A DNA stretch of 64,000 nt, from assembly GCA_963576725.1 (NCBI GenBank), contig OY755252.1, positions 51,051,059 to 51,115,058 on the forward strand, written 5' to 3'. This document shows, in pieces, positions 15,431-30,380 of this stretch (position 1 is the first letter of the stretch; each line of letters begins with the position of its first letter). Origin of the DNA: Azorinus chamasolen (Eukaryota > Mollusca > Bivalvia > Cardiida > Solecurtidae). The position numbers were made by a program, and so were the translations under genes. Below the pieces are notes generated by a model. The model saw nothing but the letters and a program-made list of their open reading frames with translations. It ran no database searches and was not told the DNA's origin.

Positions 15431-17559
15431 ACAAGAGCACCGCGAGACGGGGCAATATACGCCCGAAGGCTGTTCTATAAAATTATGTTGAAAAATAAAG
15501 GAGGAGTTAGTTGCACAAGAAATTGATACCCGAAACTATCAAAGGGCAATAATTCCAGAATGAAAAATATGACTGACCTTAAAGGTAATGATGTAGGTCT
15601 AGTTAGCTACAGCCAGGACACAAAATTTGCTAACGCTCTATTTGTGACCTTGACCTTGAAAGTTCACAATTGGGTTTTGTATGCAACACACCTTCAAGTG
15701 ATACTGAAGCCCTATTTGTGACCTTGACCTTGAAAGTTCACAATTGGGTTTTGTACGCGACACACCTTCAAGTGATACTGAACATATGTGTGAAAGAATT
15801 TTGAAAATCGGAGAAAAAATGAGTAAGTTATAGCCAGGACACGAATTTGCTAACGGACGGACAGAATTGCTAACGCCCTATTTGTGACCTTGACCTTGAA
15901 AGTTCACCATTGGGTTTTGTACGCGACACACCTTCAAGTGATACTGAACATATGTGTGAAAGAATTTTGAAAATTGGTGAAAAGATGAGTAAGTTTTACC
16001 AAGGACACGAAAATTGCTAACGCCCTATTTGTGACCTTGACCTTGAAAGTTCACAATTGGGTTTTGTACGTGACACACCTTCAAGTGATACTGAACATTT
16101 GTGTGAAAGAATTTTGAAAATCGGAGAAAAAATGAGTAAGTTATAGCCAGGACACGAATTTGCTAACGGACGGACGGACAGAATTGCTAACGCCCTATTT
16201 GTGACCTTGACCTTGAAAGTTCACCATTGGGTTTTGTACGCGACACACCTTCAAGTGATACTGAACATACGTGTGAAAGAATTTTGAAAATTGGTGAAAA
16301 GATGAGTAAGTTTTAGCAAGGACACGAAAATTGCTAACGCCCTATTTGTGACCTTGACCTTGAAAGTTCACAATTGGGTTTTGTACGCGACACACCTTCA
16401 AGTGATACTGAACATTTGTGTGAAAGAATTTTGAAAATCGGAGAAAAAATGAGTAAGTTATAGCCAGGACACGAATTTGCTAACGGACGGACGGACGGAC
16501 ATTTGTGACCTTGACCTTGAAAGTTCACAATTGGGTTTTGTACGCGACACACCTTCAAGTGATACTGAACATTTGTGTGAAAGAATTTTGAAAATCGGAG
16601 AAAAAATGAGTAAGTTATAGCCAGGACACGAATTTGCTAACGGACGGACGGACAGAATTGCTAACGCCCTATTTGTGACCTTGACCTTGAAAGTTCACCA
16701 TTGGGTTTTGTACGCGACACACCTTCAAGTGATACTGAACATACGTGTGAAAGAATTTTGAAAATTGGTGAAAAGATGAGTAAGTTTTAGCAAGGACACG
16801 AAAATTGCTAACGCCCTATTTGTGACCTTGACCTTGAAAGTTCACAATTGGGTTTTGTACGCGACACACCTTCAAGTGATACTGAACATTTGTGTGAAAG
16901 AATTTTGAAAATCGGAGAAAAAATGAGTAAGTTATAGCCAGGACACGAATTTGCTAACGGACGGACGGACGGACATTTGTGACCTTGACCTTGAAAGTTC
17001 ACAATTGGGTTTTGTACGCGACACACCTTCAAGTGATACTGAACATTTGTGTGAAAGAATTTTGAAAATCGGAGAAAAAATGAGTAAGTTATAGCCAGGA
17101 CACGAATTTGCTAACGGACGGACGGACAGAATTGCTAACGCCCTATTTGTGACCTTGACCTTGAAAGTTCACCATTGGGTTTTGTACGCGACACACCTTC
17201 AAGTGATACTGAACATACGTGTGAAAGAATTTTGAAAATTGGTGAAAAGATGAGTAAGTTTTAGCAAGGACACGAAAATTGCTAACGCCCTATTTGTGAC
17301 CTTGACCTTGAAAGTTCACAATTGGGTTTTGTACGCGACACACCTTCAAGTGATACTGAACATTTGTGTGAAAGAATTTTGAAAATCGGAGAAAAAATGA
17401 GTAAGTTATAGCCAGGACACGAATTTGCTAACGGACGGACGGACGGACGGACGGACGGACGGACGGACGGACAGACAGACAGACAGACGGACGGACACCC
17501 AGCCAGACGGCCAGACGATGGAGACCATAACATAATACGACCCTTCGGGCGTATAAAAA
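15431..17559 (+). mobile_element. Helitron-like tandem-core element H6 with higher-order repeat
   Basis: Starts ACAAGAGCACCGCGAGACGG. ~160-bp cores contain TTTGTGACCTTGACCTTGAA, GGGTTTTGTACGCGACACAC and TTCAAGTGATACTGAACAT, separated by short (ACGG)n runs. It ends with a long ACGG/ACAG run (about 17432-17490) and the hairpin CGACCCTTCGGGCG plus TATAAAAA. No protein is encoded; small minus-strand frames repeat identically because the DNA does. Confidence 0.75.
16183..17440. repeat. 474-bp higher-order tandem repeat inside H6
   Basis: Blocks of three ~160-bp cores plus ACGG spacers recur with an exact period of 474 bp (for example GTGACCTTGACCTTGAAAGT at 16201, 16675 and 17149). By eye the successive blocks are identical across long stretches, including the lengths of the ACGG runs, implying very recent unequal exchange or assembly duplication. 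Confidence 0.85.
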
Positions 17560-17569
17560 TGAAGAATAA

Positions 17570-18530
17570 TTCTTAGAAATAAGACCCTTTCATGAGGTTT
17601 TTGTCAAATCCAAAGTTCTAAAGCTAGGTACCTTTTCAGAAAAACATTAAGTTCAAGGACCATAACTCTGACAATAATTATTCAACCAGACCGATATTTG
17701 AACTTAAGCTGTACCTCATCTAGATTTATTTTTATGTCAAATATGAAGTTAATATCTGCAACCACTTCCAAAGAAAGACCGGAAAACTGAAAATTTGACA
17801 AAAAATTAAAGTTCAAGGGCCATAACTCTGGCAAAAATTATTCAACCAGACTGAGATTGGTAATTAAGCTGTAAATCATGTAGAGTTAGCTTTATGCCAA
17901 ATATAAAGTTAATATCTGCAACCACTTCCAAGAAAAGTCCGGAAAACTGAAAATTTGACAAAAAATTAAAGTTCAAGGGCCATAACTCTGGCAAAATTAT
18001 TCAACCAGACTGAGATTGGGAATTAAGCTGTAAATCATGTAGAGTTAGCTTTGTGCCAAATATACAGTTAATATCTGCAACCACTTCCAAGAAAAGTCCG
18101 GAAAATCCCAAATTTGAAGAAAAAAATTAAAGTACAAGGGCAATAACTCTGGAAATAATTATTCAACCGGACTGAGATTGTAACATAAGCTGTAACTTAT
18201 ACAGATTTAGCTTTGTACTAAATATAGAGTTGATATCTGGAGTCACTTCCATAAAAAGTCCAGAAAACCGGAAAACATTGGTACGGGACTAAAAAGGGGA
18301 GATAACTCCTGAAGTAGTGGTCCGATCATAATGGAAATATGCGGTGCACAGGTTTATATGGTCATATGGCTATATATGAACTTTCAACAAAATTGAAGCA
18401 AAACTGTAGAAGAAGAAGGCCGGACAAAATTGTGTCCACGGACGGACAGACGGACAGACGGACGGACGGACAGACGGACAACCTGATTCCAGTATACCCC
18501 CCCAAACTTCGTTGTGGGGGGTATAATAAA
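17570..18530 (+). mobile_element. Helitron-like tandem-core element H7 (GGGGGGTATAATAAA end)
   Basis: Four ~160-bp cores contain AAGGGCCATAACTCTGGCAA, AATTATTCAACCAGACTGAG and ATCTGCAACCACTTCCAAG. A (GGAC/AGAC)n run follows near 18438, then the hairpin TATACCCCCC...GGGGGGTATA and ATAAA. The 5' boundary next to H6 is unclear. Confidence 0.65.
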
Positions 18531-18635: not shown

Positions 18636-18889
18636 TTGAACGGATACTTTTTCATGTCTTTGCAAACAGAGTAGACCCAGATCAGACGACTCCTGTAAGA
18701 GTCATCTGACAATGGTCTGCTTTGTGTGGTTAATATTTTAAATTATCAAGAGCTGATTCTAGTACATTTTCCACCAATTTAATACCAAGAATTCCTGTGT
18801 TCCCACATGCCATTATAGAATTGTAGCTAATTAATATAAATGATGTGATTACTTCCCACATGAATATTCATAAGGCAGAATGGGTAAAG
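18636..18889 (-). mobile_element. Family A MITE (reverse)
   Basis: TTTTTCATGTCTTTGCAAAC, core GATCAGACGACTCCTGTAAG, TTTTCCACCAATTTAATACC, CCTGTGTTCCCACATGCCAT and TTACTTCCCACATGAATATT lie in reverse order. 18890-19097 is unique AT-rich DNA without a visible gene. Confidence 0.6.
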
Positions 18890-19097: not shown

Positions 19098-19320
19098 CCC
19101 TTTACTCCATGAATATTCATGTAAAAAATAAAAACAACATGAATATTTACTAGATTCATTTTCATAATGGCATAATTATGAACACAGGACATGTTGGCTA
19201 TGGCAGAAATATGTAGAATATCTATAGTATATCATCAGCAAACAGAGCAGACCCTGATCAGATGGATCTTACAAGAGCCGTCTGATCTGCAAAAGTGAAA
19301 TTCATGGAGAAAAGGGTTAA
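19098..19320 (+). mobile_element. Family A MITE adjoining the retrotransposon
   Basis: CCCTTTACTCCATGAATATT ... GGCTATGGCAGAAATATGTA ... core palindrome (GATCAGATGGATCTTACAAG / AGCCGTCTGATCTG), ending CATGGAGAAAAGGGTTAA at 19320. The next MITE (family B) starts immediately and shares the TTAA. Confidence 0.8.
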
Positions 19321-19326
19321 CCCGTT

Positions 19327-19850
19327 TGTGACTGCGATACTAGGAGTACGAAGCTCGCTCGGGGCGAACCATGTTGGTTCGCTTCTCGATTTTTGGTACC
19401 AGTCTGCGACAAAATGTTCGTCTGCCGGATTCACTAGTTGGCTGCGTTTTCTGCGTTTGTTTTGCGTAAAAGGCCCCAAAGAGGTAGTTATATATCAATT
19501 TCAAGTGTGTTATTATATATATACACAATACGAAAAGCATGTTTATTGCCAGATTTATATTTTAAACGTAAACGCCGTGTTTGTTGTGTTGATATTCATA
19601 TGCATAGTACTCGGACATCCATGTTTCGGATATGATGATGTAATTTTGTATCATTGTGTAACTATGTAATGTCTGAGATTATGTTATGTAATTGAATGGT
19701 TATATAGATTCAACCTTTAAATCTATACTCACACTGTGTTTATGTTTATACTTTCAGTTTGACGTGATTTTATCAGAATACAATGATAATCGCAGTACAC
19801 TCTTGGTCCTTTTGATATTCGTTTATATATACAACTACGAATCCGTCATA
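19327..19850 (+). repeat. 5' LTR
   Basis: 524 bp, TGTGACTGCG to TCCGTCATA. Contains TA-rich TATATATATACAC around 19515-19526, which could serve as a promoter, and a splice-acceptor-like TATACTTTCAG near 19747-19757. No base differs from the 3' copy on direct comparison. Confidence 0.95.
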
Positions 19851-19906
19851 GTCAAACTCTATAGGAACTGTGCGGCTTATGTCTAGCAGTAACATCAACT
19901 GGACTT

Positions 19907-20620
19907 ATGAGCAGTAGCAAGCTTCTTAAATACGTTCAGAAGAATTCTGAAATAACTGTGCCAGAATTTAGTTTTACGCCTGTGTGTGTTGCTGACAGTA
20001 AAGGCAAATATCTCCAACGAACTAAAACTAACTCTGTTCAAGACAGAATTATTTGGTACTGCAAAGCAGGGTTGAAGTCGTCAAAAGCTGAGAAATGGCT
20101 CACAACAAACATTATTGATTTGCGTAGAAAACATGGTAGCATTCATCTTTACATATGGCTTGGTACATGTGACCTAACATATAAAGAAGGGCGATTTATT
20201 TCGTTATCTGCAAATCCTGAAGAATCCTTTGAAGAATTGAAAGAAAATTACAGAAAAATCAAAACACTTTGTGAAACAAACAATATTAAAGTGACATTTC
20301 TACAGATCCCTTACTATTCTATTCAGCTGTGGAACAAACATAAAGGACACTCTGACTTTGAAAGATTTAAATCAGATGATTTATCACTGACATCGCTTGT
20401 GGATCGTGCAAATGCGTTTATCAACGATATCAATACCCAGATGTCAATGTGTTCGCCAAAATTTTGCCAGGATATGGTTAGATCAAGAAAGGCAAAGAAC
20501 TCTGCGGGACGCTACTCAATCAACTTTAATTTGCTGAGAGACGGTGTTCATCCTGGAGCGCTCCTATCGAAAGTTTGGTGTATATCGATCATCAGGAGAA
20601 TATGCCAAGAATGTGCATAG
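19907..20620 (+). CDS. Retrotransposon ORF1: SGNH/GDSL-hydrolase-like protein
   Basis: 237 aa, starting 57 nt after the 5' LTR and separate from Gag-Pol. The four SGNH blocks appear in order. Block I is VCVADSKGKYL, with the candidate nucleophile Ser31. The block II Gly is Gly55, after IIWYCKAG. Block III is LGTCDLT (86-89), where the usual Asn of GxND is Cys88. Block V is DGVHPG, with Asp212 and His215. Hydrophobic strands precede blocks I and III and lie at about 128-137 (VTFLQIP). No signal peptide or membrane helix is seen, so it is probably cytosolic. SGNH-fold ORF1 proteins are known from some CR1/L2-type LINEs. For a BEL/Pao element I regard this as unusual. Role unknown: esterase on membrane lipid or a non-catalytic lipid/RNP-binding factor. 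The Cys88 change leaves activity uncertain. Confidence 0.75.
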   Translation: MSSSKLLKYVQKNSEITVPEFSFTPVCVADSKGKYLQRTKTNSVQDRIIWYCKAGLKSSKAEKWLTTNIIDLRRKHGSIHLYIWLGTCDLTYKEGRFISLSANPEESFEELKENYRKIKTLCETNNIKVTFLQIPYYSIQLWNKHKGHSDFERFKSDDLSLTSLVDRANAFINDINTQMSMCSPKFCQDMVRSRKAKNSAGRYSINFNLLRDGVHPGALLSKVWCISIIRRICQECA

Positions 20621-20645
20621 ACTTACTGTGTTTTCTCTCCTAGTA

Positions 20646-21259
20646 GGCTGGGATCGCCAGCCAGACTTCTGCGAACTGCTGTATCCTTTACATGAAGTTT
20701 ATGTAGGCTGAGATTGCTCAGTCACTTGTTGGTTTCTTAGATAACATTTAGTAGGCTGAGATTGCTCAGTCACTTGCATATTGTCATTAGTAGACTGATA
20801 TTGCTCAGTCACTTGCCTTTTGACTTTAGTAAGCAATACTTGTAGATTAACATTTAGTAGGCTGAGATTGCTCAGTCACTTGCATATTAACAGTTAGTAG
20901 GCTGAGATTGCTCAGTCACTTGCATATTAACATTTAGTAGGCTGAGATTGCTCAGTCACTTGCATATTGACATTAGTAGGCTGAGATTGCTCAGTCACTT
21001 GCATTTTGACATTAGTAGACTGATATTGCTCAGTCACTTGCTTTTTGACTTTAGTAAGCAATACTTGTATATTAACATTTAGTAGGCTGAGATTGCTCAG
21101 TCACTTGCATATTAACATTTAGTAGGCTGAGATTGCTCAGTCACTTGCATATTGACATTAGAAGGCTGAGATTGCTCAGTCACTTGCATTTTGACTTTAG
21201 TAGGCTGAGATTGCTCAGTCACTTGATCCTTGACTCTGATAGGCTGGGATTGCTCAGCC
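20646..21259 (+). repeat. Array of 14 tandem RNA hairpins (GGCTGAGATTGCTCAGTC)
   Basis: Fourteen copies of an 18-nt stem-loop (7-bp stem, ATTG loop) start at 20646, 20706, 20754, 20793, 20860, 20900, 20940, 20979, 21018, 21085, 21125, 21164, 21203 and 21242, mostly 39-40 bp apart with spacers like ACTTGCATATTAACATTTAG. Pair 2/17 is G-U in most units, A-U in GACTGATATTGCTCAGTC (20793, 21018) and G-C in the last (GGCTGGGATTGCTCAGCC). The first unit has its own matched stem, GGCTGG/CCAGCC. Change with kept pairing argues for a structured RNA. It fills the gap between ORF1 and Gag-Pol. Confidence 0.85.
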
Positions 21260-21451
21260 ATACAAAATAACATAGACATATTTTCTCATATCAATAGAAA
21301 GGTTTATTAGTATAGATTAGCATGCACTCTTTTGAGACTCTCATTGGGCTTGATTTAAACTTTTAATTTTAATAGTTTATTCCGTACGGCATTCGTAAAT
21401 GCAGCTTATCTGAAAGTGGTGTTTGTACATCAGGTCATTTTGTTCTAAATA

Positions 21452-24400
21452 ATGGACTCAACAGATCAGGGTAAGTTTGATACAACTTCAGTCGATGGTG
21501 CTGATCAGACGATTGTTGAAGGTCCTCAAGAGCGTACACTTACTGATAAGGGAAGAGAATGGCACATGCAGCAGCTGAAGGGTAAGTTCAGATCATCTGT
21601 GACCAAGTGGCAGAGGTTTGCAAATTCATTCACCATTCTCCTATCAGACTGTAATGATTGTAGTGTCATTAGAGAAGAGAGACAGAAGCTTAACCAGTAT
21701 TTTGATGATTTATCAATGATTTTTGATGAGATTTGTCAATTGGATATGGAAACACCACTTTCTGGAAAATATGACACTGTCGCAGAAGAACATAAGGATC
21801 TTATGTTGCGCATTTCAGATGCGATTAGGTTTTTAGAATCTGAGAATAGCTCTGTCAAATCTAGCAAACACTCAACCTTGTCTCGCAGTTCACAGAAAAC
21901 AAAATTGTCTGCTGCTGCTGAAGCTGCATCGCTGAAAGCAAAATTAAGGTATGTTGACGTTGAGGCTAAAACAAGAGCAGAACTTGAAAAAATAGAAATC
22001 ATGAAAAGGCTTGACATGGCAAATGCTAAGCTTGATGCAATAAAGTCTGAAGAATTACAATCTCCTAGTGTATCAGTGGCTGGAGATCTACCAGAGGTAG
22101 AGGTAGATAAGAATACCCTGGTTAAGAATTTCATTTTATCACAAATTGAAAATGAAACTGTTTCTCCATCTGTGCCTTTAGAGCCCAAGATAAACATTAA
22201 GAGGGGCAGTCTGAATCCCAATGCAGGTGAGTTTTTGCCTACTTATTCCTTTGTTGATAAACCCAAACTTGTACCAGATAATGAATCCACAAAATTACAA
22301 CAGAGTCTCATAGATTTGACCAAATCTCTTGCAGACCAGGTTTCATTAAACCGACTTCCCCCACCAGAGCCTAATAAATTCTATGGTGACCCAATTCTTT
22401 ATCCTGCATGGAAGGTGGCTTTTGCAACACTTATTGAACAGAGAAAACTCCCCAATGGCGAGAAGATACACTATTTAAAGAAATATCTTGGTGGCCCTGT
22501 CTTGCAGGTTGTAGAAAACTATTTTCTTCTTTCTAGTGAAGATGCTTTTGAAGAAGCTAAGAAATTGCTAGACGAAAGGTTTGGTGACCCTTTTATTATA
22601 GCTGGTGCATTTCGTGACAAGCTTGAAACATGGCCTAAGATTAGTGCAAAGGACGCACAAGGTCTTTTGAGGTTTTCAGATTTTTTGAAGCAATGTCTAG
22701 CTGCAATCAACCAGTATTCAAGTCTGGAAATTCTAAATGACAGTAGAGAAAATCGAAAAATTCTTTCGAAGTTGCCTGAATGGTTTGTGTCTCGTTGGAA
22801 TCGAGTAGTTGCTAAGTCAAAGGAAGAAAAGGGAGAATTCCCGAATTTCAAGGTCTTTGTCGATTTTGTTTGCAGAGAAGCCAAAATTGCAAATGATCCG
22901 GTAACCTCGGTGCAGTCCGTACGAGGGGTAAATGTTACTGAGGAGAACAAAGTAAACAAAGACTGGCATAGACATCAATTTAAGTCAGACAAATCCGTTA
23001 GTGGTCGTTCATTTTTGTCGGGTACAGAAGAAAGTGCAAACTCAAATTCCACTCAGACTGTTGTTCGCAATACTTGCCATTTCTGCAAAAAGTTTCATGA
23101 TCTGGATGATTGTAAGGCTTTCCTTGGTAAATCTTTAGCTGAGCGGAAGGTTTTTGTTGGCGTCAAAAAACTTTGTTTCGCCTGTCTCAGGTCAAACCAT
23201 ATCTCCAAGGACTGTAGGCACAGAAAGAAGTGCAAATTCTGTGGGAAATTTCACCCTTCTTCATTGCATGGTGATATTAAGCCTCATATCCAAACAGGTA
23301 ATAGCAACAGTGGCACTGTTCCTGTCAAAACTGAATCTCCCAGCAGTCATAATACCCATTTGTCTCTCACTGGAACAGCATTTCTCAACAGTACTAGTTC
23401 AGTGAGAAAGTGCTCAATGATTCTGCCTGTCTATGTATCACATTGTGATGATCCAACAAATGAAAGGTTGGTGTATGCGCTTTTGGACACCCAGTCTGAT
23501 GCAACTTTCATTCTGGAAGATACTTGTAAAGCCCTTGGCATATCTGGTGTGGAAGTGAAACTGTCCCTTTCCACAATGCATGCAGAGAATAAGGTTGTTG
23601 AGAGTCAGAGAATGAAAGGTTTGATGGTTCGTGGCTTTGATTCAGATTTGAAGATTCCACTTCCTCCTGCCTACACTAGGGATATTATGCCAGCTAACCG
23701 CTCGCATATTCCTGAAACAAATGTTGTCCATTCATGGCCCTATCTGCATTCAGTAGCCAAACAGCTTGTTCCTTTGCAAGAGTGCGAAATTGGCCTTCTT
23801 ATCGGATATAACTGTCCCAGAGCTTTGGTTCCGCGAGAAGTTGTTGCTCCTGAGGGAGACGGTCCGTATGGTCAAAGAACAGATCTTGGGTGGGGTATCG
23901 TTGGAATTGTTGACACTTGGGTCTCTGAGAATGATTCAGTTGGTGTGAGTCACCGAATCGTATCATGCGAAATTCCTTCAGATGTTCTAGTTGACGATAT
24001 TGCGGGTCCAAGTTCTGTTTTCTTTTCATTGCGTACATCTGTAAAAGAGGTTGTTACTACAGATGTTCTCAAACTGTTGGAGCAAGACTTTCATGACCGG
24101 AGAGCAAACAGCCAGTCTCTTTCTCAGCAAGATTGTCGTTTCCTAACCTTGTTGGAACAAGGTATTAGTTTTAAGGAAGGTCACTATGAAATGCCCTTGC
24201 CATTTGTCAAGGAAGAGCCTGTCCTTCCAAACAACAAAGCTATAGCTTTGAAGAGGTTAAACCAATTGCGGAAGCGGCTGGACAGAGATGAAGCATTCCG
24301 TAAACATTACCTGGAATTCATGAAAGAGCTTATAGATAACGGCCATGCAGAGAAGGTCCCAGAAACAGATGCAACGGATAAGGAATGTCAGGTTTGGTAC

Positions 24401-27400
24401 ATCCCACATCATGGCGTGTACCATCCCCACAAACCCGACAAAGTTAGGGTTGTTTTTGATTGTAGTGCTTCTTTTCAGGGGGTTTGTTTAAATTCCTACC
24501 TTTTGCAAGGTCCAGACCTTATCAATAGTCTCATAGGGGTAATTTGTAGGTTTAGGAAAGAGCCAATAGCCATCATGTGTGATGTGGAAAAGATGTTTTA
24601 CCAGTTTAGGGTATCTACTAAACACAGAGATTATTTGAGATTCTTGTGGTGGGAAAATGGAGACTTCGACAATGACCCTATTGAATACAGAATGACTGTT
24701 CATTTGTTTGGAGCCAAGTCCTCTCCTGGATGTGCCAATTTCGGCTTAAAAAAGATGGCTGATGACCATGAAGTTGAGTTTGGGTCTGAAGTTGCCAATT
24801 TTGTTCGCCGAGACTTTTATGTCGATGACGGCTTAAAGTCGTTGGCTACAGCAAGCAAAGCACTTGAGTTAATAGAAAATGCCAAGACCATGTGCTGCAA
24901 GGCTGGTCTGAGATTGCACAAATTCGTCTCAAATTCAAAGGAAGTTCTTGGACAGCTTCCTTCAGATGATCTTGCAAAAGACCTGAAGGATATCGATATT
25001 TCCCACGACTCCTTGCCCGTTGAAAGAGTATTGGGCAATTTGTGGTGTGTAGAATCAGATTCCTTTCAGTTTCGCCTTACGTTGAGTGACAATCCGCTCA
25101 CTCGTCGCGGAATTATGTCCACCATTAGCTCAATCTATGACCCTCTTGGTCTTATTTCACCAGTTGTCCTGGTAGGAAAACGTATTCTTCAACAGGTTTG
25201 TGCAGATCGGGCAGACTGGGACGACCCTGTTCCAGAAGATTTGAGGACAATTTGGGAAAAATGGCGTGGTAGCTTGTTTCATTTAGAGAAGTTGAAAGTA
25301 CCCAGATGTTTGAAATCGGAAGACTCGAATGAGATCGCACTTGTAGAAATGCATCATTTCTCTGATGCAAGCACAGTAGGGTATGGTCAATGTTCTTATT
25401 TGCGTATAGTAAATACGACAGGAAAGGTGCATTGTAGATTTTTGTATGGGAAATCTCGTGTTGCCCCATTGAAACCAATGACAATTCCACGTCTGGAGCT
25501 CACTGCAGCGGTGCTCTCTGTCAGAAGTAGTGCAATGCTTGATCTGGAGTTAGAAATTCCTATGGTGAAACATTTCTATTGGTCTGATAGTCAGGTAGTA
25601 CTGGGATATATTTCGAACGAAGCCAGACGGTTTCATGTGTTTGTGGCTAATAGAGTTCAAGAAATTAGAAGCCAGACCAGCATCCAGCAGTGGAACTATG
25701 TTCCGTCGAATGATAACCCAGCAGATATTGCTTCCAGGGGTTCCTTTGCAAACGAATTCACCAACGATTCGATGTGGTTTCATGGTCCACAATTCCTCTG
25801 GAAACAGGTTCTTCCAGTCACAGACATGATAGACATTCCTTTGAATCCTAGTGACCCAGAATTGAGGCGTATAGAATGCTTTTCGACTGAGGTTAAGGAG
25901 TCTGATCAGTTTTCTTTGTTGGATAGCATTCAGCTCTTTTCTGATTGGAACCGAGCCAAAAGGGCAATAGCTCTTTGTCTAAGGTTCAAAAGAAGACTTC
26001 TAGATCGCTCAGTGAAGAAACCAAAACTTCCCTTGTCTAAAGAGGTTGCTTTGGCACAATTTGTTCCTGTGACTGTCGACGAGATGCGCTTAGCAGAGGT
26101 TGAGCTTTTCAAGTTGGTTCAATCAAAGTACTTCCAGTCCGAAATCACCAGTCTTAAAACTCAAGGGATTACTGGTTTTCCATCTGACAGAAAGGAAATG
26201 AGAGCTCGCAAAGAGTTTTTGAAGAAGAGTTCACCATTGTATCGTCTGGATCCTTTCGTAGATTCAGAAGGGGTTTTGCGAGTTGGTGGTAGAGTACAGC
26301 ATTCAGATTTGTCAGAGATCTTGAAATACCCTACATTGTTGCCCAAACTTAGTCATGTGACAAACCTAGTAGTAGCTCATTTTCATGGCAAAGTCCAGCA
26401 CCAAGGACGAGGAATGACTACAAATGCCATAAGAGCAAGTGGAATTTGGATCCTAGGTTGTAGTTCAGTAGTGTCTAGTTTCATTTCCAGATGCGTTGTT
26501 TGCAGGCGTATTCGCAGCAAGGTTCAAGGACAAAAGATGTCTGATTTACCCACAGATCGTACGGAACAAGTTCCACCTTTCACATATTGTGCAGTCGACC
26601 TATTTGGACCCTGGTATATCAAAGAGGGTCGTAAGGAACTGAAAAGGTACGGAGTTTTGTTCACTTGCCTTTCTTGTAGAGCAGTTCATGTAGAGTCTGC
26701 AAATTCTTTAGAAACGGACTCTTTCATTAACAGTTTGCGACGATTCATCGCAATACGTGGTCCGATGCGCCAATTGCGTTGTGATCGTGGGACAAATTTT
26801 GTAGGTGCCGAGAGAGAGATGGATGAAAATCGGGTGAGAAATTTTCTTCTGCAGGAAAATTGTGACTATGTTCCATTCAAAATGAATGTTCCTTCTGCCA
26901 GTCATATGGGTGGTGTTTGGGAGAGGCAGATTAGATCAGTTCGGTGCGTGCTTGACTCCTTATTATTGAAGCATGGATCGCAATTAAATGATGAAGGTTT
27001 GCGAACATTTCTGCATGAAGCGGCAGCCATTGTGAACTGCCGCCCATTGTCTGTTGACAACCTAAATGACCCAATGTCTGTTACTCCTCTGACTCCCAAT
27101 CATTTAGTGACATTGAAGTCTTCAGTTGTTCTTCCGCCACCCGGAATTTTTCAAAAACCTGATATCTATTGCAGAAAGCAGTGGCGACGTACTCAGTACA
27201 TGGTCAATGAATTTTGGAATAGGTGGCGCAACGAATTTCTGCAAAATTTGCAAGTAAGAAAGAAATGGGAAACCCCCAAGAGAAATATGTGTATTGGTGA
27301 TATTGTTCTTCTGAAAGAAGATAATGTCTCCAGAAACCAGTGGCGTCTTGGCCGCGTTGATGAAGTCTGGAAAGATGATGATGGTTTGGTGCGCAAGGTG

Positions 27401-27544
27401 GGTATTCTTATTGCTACTTGTAGTTTGGACGCTCAAGGGAAACGAAATCATCCCTTGACCTTTTTAGAGAGACCGGTGCACAAACTTATTTTACTACTTG
27501 AATCCGAGGAAATCCCCGTCGAGGAGCCATCTTCTAGTCAGTAA
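21452..27544 (+). CDS. BEL/Pao Gag-Pol polyprotein
   Basis: 2030 aa, no internal stop. Residues 1-290: charged helical Gag N-terminus. About 300-470: Pao-type Gag (DUF1759-like; PNKFYGDPILYPAWKVAFAT). About 540-610: zinc knuckles (CHFCKKFHDLDDC; CFACLRSNHISKDC; CKFCGKFH). Protease: LLDTQSDATF with Asp679, then the conserved DLGWGIVG. Reverse transcriptase: FDCSA near 1000, catalytic Asp1044 (MCDVEKMF) and FYVDD with Asp1125/1126. RNase H-like: FSDAS near 1303 and WSDSQ. Integrase: zinc-binding H-H-C-C near 1641-1675 and catalytic Asp1716, Asp1778, Glu1824. C-terminus: DUF5641-like (WRLGRVDEVW). ATG at 21452 is the first in frame after the hairpin array. Proteins form the particle, copy the RNA and integrate the DNA. 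No envelope ORF follows. Confidence 0.97.
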   Translation: MDSTDQGKFDTTSVDGADQTIVEGPQERTLTDKGREWHMQQLKGKFRSSVTKWQRFANSFTILLSDCNDCSVIREERQKLNQYFDDLSMIFDEICQLDMETPLSGKYDTVAEEHKDLMLRISDAIRFLESENSSVKSSKHSTLSRSSQKTKLSAAAEAASLKAKLRYVDVEAKTRAELEKIEIMKRLDMANAKLDAIKSEELQSPSVSVAGDLPEVEVDKNTLVKNFILSQIENETVSPSVPLEPKINIKRGSLNPNAGEFLPTYSFVDKPKLVPDNESTKLQQSLIDLTKSLADQVSLNRLPPPEPNKFYGDPILYPAWKVAFATLIEQRKLPNGEKIHYLKKYLGGPVLQVVENYFLLSSEDAFEEAKKLLDERFGDPFIIAGAFRDKLETWPKISAKDAQGLLRFSDFLKQCLAAINQYSSLEILNDSRENRKILSKLPEWFVSRWNRVVAKSKEEKGEFPNFKVFVDFVCREAKIANDPVTSVQSVRGVNVTEENKVNKDWHRHQFKSDKSVSGRSFLSGTEESANSNSTQTVVRNTCHFCKKFHDLDDCKAFLGKSLAERKVFVGVKKLCFACLRSNHISKDCRHRKKCKFCGKFHPSSLHGDIKPHIQTGNSNSGTVPVKTESPSSHNTHLSLTGTAFLNSTSSVRKCSMILPVYVSHCDDPTNERLVYALLDTQSDATFILEDTCKALGISGVEVKLSLSTMHAENKVVESQRMKGLMVRGFDSDLKIPLPPAYTRDIMPANRSHIPETNVVHSWPYLHSVAKQLVPLQECEIGLLIGYNCPRALVPREVVAPEGDGPYGQRTDLGWGIVGIVDTWVSENDSVGVSHRIVSCEIPSDVLVDDIAGPSSVFFSLRTSVKEVVTTDVLKLLEQDFHDRRANSQSLSQQDCRFLTLLEQGISFKEGHYEMPLPFVKEEPVLPNNKAIALKRLNQLRKRLDRDEAFRKHYLEFMKELIDNGHAEKVPETDATDKECQVWYIPHHGVYHPHKPDKVRVVFDCSASFQGVCLNSYLLQGPDLINSLIGVICRFRKEPIAIMCDVEKMFYQFRVSTKHRDYLRFLWWENGDFDNDPIEYRMTVHLFGAKSSPGCANFGLKKMADDHEVEFGSEVANFVRRDFYVDDGLKSLATASKALELIENAKTMCCKAGLRLHKFVSNSKEVLGQLPSDDLAKDLKDIDISHDSLPVERVLGNLWCVESDSFQFRLTLSDNPLTRRGIMSTISSIYDPLGLISPVVLVGKRILQQVCADRADWDDPVPEDLRTIWEKWRGSLFHLEKLKVPRCLKSEDSNEIALVEMHHFSDASTVGYGQCSYLRIVNTTGKVHCRFLYGKSRVAPLKPMTIPRLELTAAVLSVRSSAMLDLELEIPMVKHFYWSDSQVVLGYISNEARRFHVFVANRVQEIRSQTSIQQWNYVPSNDNPADIASRGSFANEFTNDSMWFHGPQFLWKQVLPVTDMIDIPLNPSDPELRRIECFSTEVKESDQFSLLDSIQLFSDWNRAKRAIALCLRFKRRLLDRSVKKPKLPLSKEVALAQFVPVTVDEMRLAEVELFKLVQSKYFQSEITSLKTQGITGFPSDRKEMRARKEFLKKSSPLYRLDPFVDSEGVLRVGGRVQHSDLSEILKYPTLLPKLSHVTNLVVAHFHGKVQHQGRGMTTNAIRASGIWILGCSSVVSSFISRCVVCRRIRSKVQGQKMSDLPTDRTEQVPPFTYCAVDLFGPWYIKEGRKELKRYGVLFTCLSCRAVHVESANSLETDSFINSLRRFIAIRGPMRQLRCDRGTNFVGAEREMDENRVRNFLLQENCDYVPFKMNVPSASHMGGVWERQIRSVRCVLDSLLLKHGSQLNDEGLRTFLHEAAAIVNCRPLSVDNLNDPMSVTPLTPNHLVTLKSSVVLPPPGIFQKPDIYCRKQWRRTQYMVNEFWNRWRNEFLQNLQVRKKWETPKRNMCIGDIVLLKEDNVSRNQWRLGRVDEVWKDDDGLVRKVGILIATCSLDAQGKRNHPLTFLERPVHKLILLLESEEIPVEEPSSSQ

Positions 27545-27830
27545 GTATTGATAACATATGTATAAACTGTAAGAGTTGTTTTTTGAGTTTATTAATGTGA
27601 AGTTTGATTTCATCACCAGGTTTTCAATACAACAGTATTAATGTTCATGTTTAATATGTATACAGTGATATTCTTTTACGGTGGCGGCCGTAAAGGGTCG
27701 CCCGTGCTTCATTCTCGGTGTTTCATTTTCTGGTTCTTCGGATGTTTGATTATCTTTATATAATACTCACTTGAACTTGTATATTACTTGATGCGAGGTC
27801 ATATTAGTTAATGTCAAATTAGTAAACTAA

Positions 27831-27843
27831 TTTGGAGGAGCCA
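27831..27843 (+). other. Candidate polypurine tract of the retrotransposon
   Basis: TTGGAGGAG lies immediately before CCA and the TGTGAC start of the 3' LTR, the position expected for the plus-strand primer. It is short; assignment is by position and purine content. Confidence 0.5.
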
Positions 27844-28367
27844 TGTGACTGCGATACTAGGAGTACGAAGCTCGCTCGGGGCGAACCATGTTGGTTCGCT
27901 TCTCGATTTTTGGTACCAGTCTGCGACAAAATGTTCGTCTGCCGGATTCACTAGTTGGCTGCGTTTTCTGCGTTTGTTTTGCGTAAAAGGCCCCAAAGAG
28001 GTAGTTATATATCAATTTCAAGTGTGTTATTATATATATACACAATACGAAAAGCATGTTTATTGCCAGATTTATATTTTAAACGTAAACGCCGTGTTTG
28101 TTGTGTTGATATTCATATGCATAGTACTCGGACATCCATGTTTCGGATATGATGATGTAATTTTGTATCATTGTGTAACTATGTAATGTCTGAGATTATG
28201 TTATGTAATTGAATGGTTATATAGATTCAACCTTTAAATCTATACTCACACTGTGTTTATGTTTATACTTTCAGTTTGACGTGATTTTATCAGAATACAA
28301 TGATAATCGCAGTACACTCTTGGTCCTTTTGATATTCGTTTATATATACAACTACGAATCCGTCATA
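27844..28367 (+). repeat. 3' LTR
   Basis: 524 bp, base-for-base the same as 19327-19850 in row-by-row reading. It is followed by the duplicated CCGTT. 27545-27830 between the Gag-Pol stop and the tract is non-coding. Confidence 0.95.
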
Positions 28368-28580
28368 CCGTTCCCTCATAGGCTATTTTCTTTGAATAAA
28401 TCTACCGAAAAGGAGCATTAACTAGAGAAAAAGAAAATTTTAGAATTTTGTAGCTCTGAAACCACTGTGATAAATAGAGCATTTGCTCCTTAGGAGAAAA
28501 TGCTCTATTTATCACAATGGTTTCAAAAAGTGACTTTTATAAAGGCGTAGAAAGGCGTATTTATGGAGGAAAGGGTTAAA
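28368..28580 (+). mobile_element. Family B MITE, 5' terminus split off by the retrotransposon
   Basis: With 19321-19326 restored, the start reads TTAACCCGTTCCCTCATAGG. The body has TTTGAATAAATCTACC, GGAGCATTAACTAGAG, then an almost perfect palindrome (GATAAATAGAGCATTTGCTC / TGCTCTATTTATCACAATGG). The end is AAAGGCGTAGAAAGGCGTAT ... GGAGGAAAGGGTTAA. Ends match family A but the interior differs. From 28581 to 29012 I see unique AT-rich DNA with no convincing gene. Confidence 0.8.
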
Positions 28581-29493: not shown

Positions 29494-30380
29494 AACAAGA
29501 GGGCCAGAATGGCCCTGAAGCACTCACCAGACTATCAGAGGAGAAGATTTTCAAAGTTTTCACTATATGTTTCTATAGAAAACTAGCCGGCCCTGGGGCG
29601 GGCCAATTTTGACCCCAGGGGCATAATTTATATAACTTTTGTAGAGGACTTAGACATGATGCTATGAGCCAAATATGAAAGCTGAGCACCTTTCAGTTTC
29701 ATAAGATTTTCAAAGTTTGCTCTATATGTTTCTACTGAAAACTACCCACCCCTGGGGCGGGGCCAATTTTGACCCCAGGGCCATAATTAATATAACTTTT
29801 GTAAAGGACCTGAAGATGATGATACATGAGTTCATATTATTATTCATATCTTAACTTATTTTTAACCCTTCCACTGTTCTATGTTTATTCAAAATTTCAA
29901 TACCTACTGAATGTTCATGGACAAAATAGTTATAATGAAAAATAGAAAGTGTAGCCATTTAAGAAAGTAATGAAAAACATCTTTCAAATTCCATTAACAA
30001 ACAGAGTAGACCCTAATTAGACAGCTGCTAAAGGAGCCGCCTGATCTGGGTCTGCTCTGTTTGCAAATGCATGAAAAGGCATTTATATGAGGGAAAGGGT
30101 TAAGTAAACATATTATAAGTACATTGTATATTGTACACAAAAATGGAAATAGTTTAATGCAATTTGCACTATATAATATCATAAGTAAACAGAGCAGATT
30201 GATCATATGGCTACTAAATGAGCCATCTAATCTGGGTCTACTCTGTTTGCAATGGTGCAGAAATGCATAATTATGGAGTAAAGGGTTTAATTGTCTGTGC
30301 AATAGGCCAGATCTAAAAATATCAGTTGTCTACCCAGAAGGGAGGCAACCCAGTTGTTATCAAAAGTGCAAAGGGAGACC
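29494..30380 (+). mobile_element. H2-type element 5' part, family D MITE and shared flank (composite block 1)
   Basis: 29494-29822 starts ACAAGAGGGCCAGAATGGCC and holds two H2 cores, then breaks off in GATGATGATACATGAG. A linker TATTATTATTCATATCTTAA follows, then a family D MITE (29866-30099, CCCTTCCACTGTTC to GAGGGAAAGGG). After a second MITE comes GGAGGCAACCCAGTTGTTAT (30343). The same order recurs at 48091-48770. Confidence 0.65.
30104..30292 (+). mobile_element. Degenerate family A MITE
   Basis: ATATAATATCATAAGTAAAC, AGAGCAGATTGATCATATGG, CTACTAAATGAGCC and GGGTCTACTCTGTTTGCAAT, ending TTATGGAGTAAAGGGTTTAA. Confidence 0.6.

Follow-up and report, generated by a model that had tools for sequence, protein, structure and literature searches.

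A BEL/Pao element with an additional first reading frame

The window analysed here is a stretch of 64,000 nucleotides from the bivalve Azorinus chamasolen (contig OY755252.1, positions 51,051,059 to 51,115,058 of the forward strand). At 19327-28367 it holds a complete-looking long terminal repeat (LTR) retrotransposon, in the order LTR, ORF1, repeat spacer, Gag-Pol, LTR. Our subject is ORF1, a separate open reading frame (ORF) for a protein of predicted SGNH fold, whose homologues are carried in the same genome by other classes of retroelement. The parts of the element are listed below.

19322..19326, no strand: left copy of the target-site duplication (TSD) CCGTT, repeated after the 3' LTR
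19327..19850, plus strand: 5' LTR, 524 bp, TGTGAC...GTCATA, identical to the 3' LTR at 524/524 positions
19907..20620, plus strand: ORF1, 237-amino-acid (aa) protein of predicted SGNH fold; an ATG-to-stop frame with Ser31, Gly55, Cys88, Asp212 and His215
20638..21259, plus strand: 14 short hairpins in the spacer ahead of gag, of which 13 correspond to units of a 39-bp tandem repeat
21452..27544, plus strand: Gag-Pol frame, 2030 aa, with DUF1759, Pao peptidase A17, weak RVT_1 and integrase zinc-binding matches, and DUF5641
27829..27843, plus strand: purine-rich stretch AATTTGGAGGAGCCA, probable polypurine tract, adjoining the 3' LTR
27844..28367, plus strand: 3' LTR, 524 bp, without any difference from the 5' LTR
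28368..28372, no strand: right copy of the TSD CCGTT; the same 5 bp precede the 5' LTR

A leader of 56 bases separates ORF1 from the 5' LTR, and an 831-base spacer containing the 39-bp tandem repeat separates it from gag; in this position ORF1 would be translated as the first cistron. Matches of the single Gag-Pol frame to the Pfam families Peptidase_A17 (E 8.9e-48), DUF5641 (4.1e-25) and DUF1759 (6.1e-12) make up the BEL/Pao set, and the element is classed accordingly; its RVT_1 match is weak (E 0.055). The original prediction, made from the sequence alone, had described a BEL/Pao element with an intact 237-aa frame of its own between the 5' LTR and Gag-Pol. These domains, the identical LTRs and the TSD CCGTT agree with it, and the frame lies at exactly 19907-20620 with the motif blocks that had been read in it.

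Papers given by PMC number here and below are cited from parts of their text. Like the BEL/Pao elements surveyed previously (PMC3118150), this one has LTRs, Gag-Pol and the Pao peptidase; unlike them it has an SGNH ORF upstream of gag, the cited part of the survey describing gag, pol and rarely env and naming no such ORF. A literature search, mostly outside subscription papers, returned no paper that pairs BEL/Pao with SGNH or Belpaoviridae with an esterase; looking more widely brought up one review on fish and one paper on lentil. The words esterase, SGNH and GDSL are absent from the main texts of two papers on bivalve transposable elements (PMC10294476, PMC8905726).

A DNA search of the 1.72-Gb genome with ORF1 gave 8 matches. 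Three other insertions carry an uninterrupted ORF1 at 99.3-99.9% DNA identity, with leader, LTR and repeat spacer as in the window. For the window copy and these three, the TSDs are CCGTT, CTGAT, AAGAC and CTATG, and the LTR pairs differ at 0, 1, 2 and 0 of 524 positions; near-identical LTR pairs and individual TSDs indicate that the family was recently active. A fifth insertion, at C4:73.4 Mb, is more diverged: its TSD is CCTTC, its LTRs are 94-95% identical to those of the window, and its ORF1 lacks bases 213-427. Five insertions, the window included, therefore have paired LTRs with 5-bp TSDs, and the 15 bases AATTTGGAGGAGCCA stand directly before the 3' LTR in four further copies. The expectation that ORF1 would be found whole elsewhere in its family holds for the three close copies and fails for the more diverged ones.

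A predicted SGNH protein with cysteine in block III

ORF1 contains the motifs ADSKG (Ser31), Gly55, GTCD (residues 86-89) and DGVHPG (Asp212, His215). At E ≤ 0.001 it has 34 homologues by single-sequence search and 177 by profile, which rules out a chance ORF. The named homologues come from Mercenaria, Mytilus, Dreissena or symbiont metagenome-assembled genomes (MAGs). Three of them (P0013, P0042 and P0082), annotated in Sedimenticola and Thiodiazotropha MAGs, are probably host retroelement DNA binned with bivalve symbionts. Searches of viral contigs (with ORF1, and once with a piece of the reverse transcriptase, RT) and of prokaryote genomes found no relatives, so that carriers outside this genome are known from protein names only.

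Structure prediction followed by structure comparison supports the SGNH alpha/beta/alpha fold that had been proposed from the motifs; the model has one short N-terminal helix (residues 3-13). As a single sequence, ORF1 matched nothing significantly in Pfam or among PDB sequences. Lipase_GDSL is matched by 3 of 32 family members (best E 0.0099), and a weak profile match aligns GTCD of ORF1 with GPND of PatB. A top structural relative is 3p94, which is also the top hidden Markov model match for L2 subgroup 9 (PMC4120745). The esterase of the long interspersed nuclear element (LINE) ZfL2-1, PDB 4c1b, is absent from profile matches at E ≤ 5; it is also not among the best 50 rows of the structure search, a result that excludes nothing.

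Conservation was counted in 122 homologues, leaving out the gapped rows at each position. Ser31 occurs in 114/116, Gly55 in 110/117, Asp212 in 108/111 and His215 in 107/110, so that the block I Ser, block II Gly and block V Asp-x-x-His of the SGNH superfamily are all present. The canonical block III Asn of the oxyanion hole is not: Cys88 takes its place in 121/121, the substitution noticed at first in this one protein being common to the family. Trp84 and Gly86 are likewise found in 121/121 and Asp89 in 113/121. Within the Azorinus genome, block III has Cys in all 23 rows that cover it, alike for BEL, LINE-like and Gypsy carriers, and Gly86 is replaced in three of these 23. Judged from the alignment, the presumptive triad is kept and the oxyanion Asn replaced by Cys throughout the family. 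The proteins are basic: the isoelectric point of ORF1 is 9.4 (median 9.5 over 102 near-full-length proteins), and a loop just ahead of block V (residues 190-206) bears 4-8 Lys/Arg in 105 of the 122 homologues.

ZfL2-1 has Ser143, Gly165, Asn195, Asp279 and His282, together with the transposon-specific His191 and Ser228 (PMC3905857). ORF1 resembles the esterases of CR1, L2 and RTEX LINEs, ZfL2-1 among them, in being a first ORF with the SGNH fold, a Ser-Asp-His triad and the block II Gly (PMC3905857, PMC4120745). It differs from ZfL2-1 in having Cys88 for Asn195 and, if the same four-residue offset sets the register, the invariant Trp84 for His191; because of these two differences we do not place it in the ZfL2-1 type.

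The Cys in all 121 proteins, the high isoelectric point and the conserved basic loop are what one would expect of a catalytically dead protein that uses the SGNH fold as a scaffold for binding RNA or membranes. SGNH proteins without catalysis are known, and the OSK domain of Oskar similarly combines the fold with an altered active site (PMC3905857). Unlike OSK, ORF1 keeps the triad Ser, Asp and His, almost invariant across the family, and a pure scaffold would not need it. We regard such a scaffold, which concerns the work of the protein and not its origin, as possible, if somewhat doubtful.

The mechanism is the weak part of our account. Most likely, the ORF1 protein would bind anionic membrane or ribonucleoprotein (RNP) surfaces by its basic face, and there either hydrolyse acyl or acetyl esters slowly or, with an altered oxyanion hole, bind lipids or acyl groups. 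It may in this way assist the movement of particles or RNPs to or from membranes, by analogy with the membrane role reportedly proposed for the ORF1 esterase of the LINE ZfL2-1.

LINE-like and Ty3/Gypsy carriers

A protein search of the genome with ORF1 gave at least 151 matches, 150 of 238 candidates being scored. We read the surroundings of 44 (L015-L044, which are 30 loci, L045-L046 and L049-L060): 30 are LINE-like, 10 BEL (L015-L021, L030, L045, L046) and one Gypsy (L057), and three were not placed (L043, L050, L051).

At the 30 LINE-like loci, a second ORF comes after ORF1; it is not gag, and at some of them it is short or broken. Pfam identifies an apurinic/apyrimidinic endonuclease in L026, L031, L035 and L038, two of which (L026 and L038) also have PHD fingers; PHD-like fingers occur in L049 and L053. 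Behind L022, L048 encodes both endonuclease and RT, and L047, behind L031, has an RT match. Neither the second ORFs of L042, L052, L058, L059 and L060 nor the two short frames of L022 itself gave a Pfam endonuclease, RT or PHD domain. Eight copy pairs from six LINE-like families have 2.3-3.7 kb in common at 96-99.8% identity, with ORF1 and the second ORF together, so ORF1 belongs to these elements. The layout of PHD finger and endonuclease is CR1/L2-like (PMC4120745). ORF1 of the window is homologous to the LINE-borne ORF1s over its whole length, with 37% identity to L022 over residues 1-236.

At C4:90.87 Mb (L057, L061, L062, L064), a 266-aa ORF matches ORF1 over its length with 29% identity (E 4e-31). 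It sits between a gag, whose frame starts before ORF1 ends, and a 196-bp terminal repeat identical to its partner beyond pol. The downstream order Retrotrans_gag, CCHC, aspartyl protease, RVT_1, RT_RNaseH and rve integrase identifies a Ty3/Gypsy element, a second LTR order with ORF1. Another copy lies at C2:0.97 Mb (L063); a TSD of this carrier was looked for and not found.

Because of whole-length homology to the LINE ORF1s we reject convergence. The idea that an LTR element had taken up, or convergently kept, a lipid-acting fold independently of LINEs is not supported: with homology to both the LINE ORF1s and the Ty3/Gypsy ORF, exchange between retroelements is the simpler account.

Env-like functions can evolve in separate ORFs of LTR elements, and ORF1 could in principle be such an env-like or particle-release factor. 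Yet it lies upstream of gag, inspection by eye, without a predictor, shows neither a signal peptide nor a transmembrane stretch, and it is also carried by LINEs, elements not known to form enveloped particles. We consider an env-like role highly improbable.

ORF1 among BEL families

A search of the genome with a 321-aa RT piece gave 124 matches among 300 candidates. Among the 150 listed ORF1 matches, 12 from 10 insertions are followed on their own strand, after 3.6-8.1 kb, by an RT match (11 RT matches in all); chance would give 0.16 such pairs. Beyond the window family, BEL carriers were thus met at C4:41.86 Mb (RT identity 78%), C3:83.12 (62%; another RT-bearing frame lies between ORF1 and this match), C3:60.76 (61%) and C18:45.73 (51%). 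At C17:67.79 (L030), a gag-like frame follows ORF1 (30% over 225 aa), with no RT in the list. For the remaining RT matches, none of the listed ORF1s lies within 15 kb; two of these RT matches, at C8:9.45 (77%) and C5:88.11 Mb (97%), are fragments.

The family at C4:41.86 (L005/L012/L013) is 94% identical in DNA to the window from 19892 through ORF1, and about 85% in the repeat spacer. Its LTR has no match, its Gag and protease pieces are 57-71% identical in protein, the N-terminus 37-47% and the RT 78%. With LTR and Gag-Pol diverged, the conserved ORF1 and spacer seem, from these identities, to have been exchanged between BEL families as one cassette.

In the spacer, 14 stems have 6 pairs or more, where 100 single-base shuffles give an average of 1.1 and a maximum of 3; 13 of the 14 are tandem repeat units and thus not independent events. 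GGCUGAG-AUUG-CUCAGUC is the commonest hairpin, and the folding z-score of the spacer RNA is -3.6 (20 shuffles). L030, L045 and L046 have one to three similar hairpins, in different letters, between ORF1 and gag. Among nine hairpins compared, both sides have changed at 4 of 7 pairs and 98.4% of cells pair, a figure biased by the choice of hairpins for pairing; the evidence lies in place, loop and double changes. Hairpins with compensatory changes between BEL families were seen at window 20638-21259 and in L005, L030, L045 and L046. Our guess is that the array serves packaging, or translation of Gag behind ORF1.

Elsewhere in the window, a tandem array at 16027-17591 has spacings that alternate between 317 and 157 bp and ends in GGAC-rich simple repeats. 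Related repeats of the CAAACAGAGTAGACCC type, direct and inverted, stand on both sides of the BEL/Pao element (18660-18728, 19233-19286, 29998-30069 and 30203-30252) and look by eye like miniature inverted-repeat transposable elements.

Selection on ORF1

By the Nei-Gojobori method, the ratio of nonsynonymous to synonymous rates (dN/dS) is 0.071-0.106 for three diverged LINE pairs (dS 1.6-2.2), three more pairs being saturated, and 0.105 between two Gypsy copies (4 vs 10 changes). Near-identical LINE copies give 0.27-1.0 from 2-7 changes. A test by dN/dS had been suggested for ORF1 across copies; it succeeds in the LINE and Gypsy relatives, at about 0.1, and says little in the window family, which gives 0.17 against L004 (2 vs 3 changes) and 0.56 against the broken L005.

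Were ORF1 a passive passenger, intact by chance in young copies, decay in older ones would follow, and diverged BEL copies are indeed broken: L005/L019 by a stop and a deletion, the C4:73.4 Mb copy (L006/L007) by its missing bases 213-427, L021 and L030 by stops, L045 and L046 by frame changes. Against this, the catalytic residues are conserved across homologues only 29-45% identical, and the dN/dS of the LINE and Gypsy relatives is low. A passenger is in our view very unlikely.

Origin of the BEL-borne ORF1

Two unrooted trees of 124 and 128 rows were built, in which 110 and 104 rows, respectively, are database proteins of unknown surroundings. Both leave out 11 of 121 database proteins shorter than 200 aa, and the 128-row tree also six long-branch or divergent rows (P0106, P0110, P0114, P0117, P0119, P0120). 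In the 124-row tree, the six BEL-borne ORF1s fall within one branch of 26 rows (SH-aLRT 94), itself inside a branch of 31 rows (99) that also holds L022 and L035, both LINE-borne; further rows labelled LINE fall elsewhere in the tree. The 128-row tree has the same two branches (92 and 86), places Gypsy on a separate long branch and requires for the carrier labels 2 changes, the minimum possible.

We favour, with a probability of about 0.65, the acquisition of a LINE-type SGNH ORF1 by a BEL/Pao lineage. ORF1 would be the first-ORF protein of the type that LINEs carry in this genome, with SGNH fold and block III Cys; the BEL/Pao lineage would have gained it between 5' LTR and gag and retained it through a split into about six families. 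The transfer would thus have run from LINE to BEL.

Several observations weigh against this. A single branch of the 124-row tree separates the rows labelled BEL from those labelled LINE; either group may be the nested one, according to where the root is placed, and label counts alone leave the tree unrooted. Deep forks have a support of 25 in the 128-row tree. Among 15 LINE-labelled rows, 5 have an endonuclease or RT match in Pfam, and the other 10 owe their label to layout or kinship; L030 counts as BEL on its gag match only (30%, 225 aa). The dN/dS of the window family is, on these few changes, uninformative. In addition, six BEL-relative loci (L065-L070; RT 47-53% identical) have no ORF1-like frame upstream of gag, the gag start being seen in L069 and L070 and reckoned from the RT position in L065-L068; L065 and L066 end before it, by an estimated 0.5 and 0.9 kb, and it is reached by L067 and L068, which belong to the family of L065. 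L065 has a 73-aa ORF1-like match, most of which falls outside the part it has in common with L067.

Upstream of gag in L070 (RT identity 47%), bases 605-682 of the element strand encode 27 aa like the ORF1 N-terminus (E 0.002; best among 60 shuffled loci 0.020). This match is no more than suggestive of an ORF1 relic, which, if true, would date the gain earlier.

The same unrooted tree and weak deep forks would suit a pool of SGNH ORFs freely exchanged among retroelements, with transfer from BEL/Pao or Gypsy to LINEs, or a common source such as a host gene. BEL and Gypsy ORF1s constrained as one group are not rejected (p-AU 0.694), which would allow either one LTR gain for Gypsy and BEL or two. 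Bdelloid rotifers offer a precedent: Vesta1 LTR and Athena Penelope-like elements carry a GDSL/SGNH ORF3, and shared ORF pools have been argued for their retroelements (Rodriguez, Kenefick and Arkhipova 2017, PMC5408684). On the other side, LINE-like carriers are commoner (30 of 44 places read, vs 10 BEL and 1 Gypsy), and LINE-borne ORF1s are more diverse in the tree than BEL-borne ones. We hold such a pool to be rather unlikely, and acquisition from LINEs remains our preferred account.

As in Vesta1 and Athena, an extra SGNH/GDSL ORF of an LTR retrotransposon is common here to another retroelement class. The hosts of the bdelloid ORF are retrovirus-like LTR families (Vesta clade), where it is ORF3 with its invariant residues reported intact, unlike the window, where the host is BEL/Pao, the ORF comes first and block III has Cys. 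LINE esterases did not cluster with the bdelloid ORF3 (PMC5408684), whereas here ORF1s of LINEs in the same genome are homologous. Exchange of ORF1 among LINE lineages has been described, with esterase ORF1s occurring, in the sample studied, only in vertebrate L2 and CR1 groups (PMC4120745).

A first ORF common to several retroelement classes

Taken further, we tentatively picture the SGNH ORF1 with block III Cys as a module that may be mobile among LINE, BEL/Pao and Ty3/Gypsy elements of bivalves, first ORF wherever it is placed, passed as a cassette between BEL families, with an active-site chemistry built on its invariant Cys and, in BEL, coupled to a covarying hairpin array for translation of the second cistron or packaging.

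LTR elements replicate via cytoplasmic particles, LINEs in the nucleus by target-primed synthesis. If one protein truly serves both classes, and precedes gag in two LTR orders alike, it should act at a step common to both, for which membrane or RNP handling is a candidate; the role of SGNH ORF1s in retroelements would then become testable by comparison. The case also hints at movement of first ORFs between classes of element in bivalves, of the kind argued for bdelloids, and brings to light an SGNH family in which the expected Asn is invariably Cys. A retroelement ORF1 common to several classes is a real, unusual and informative case.
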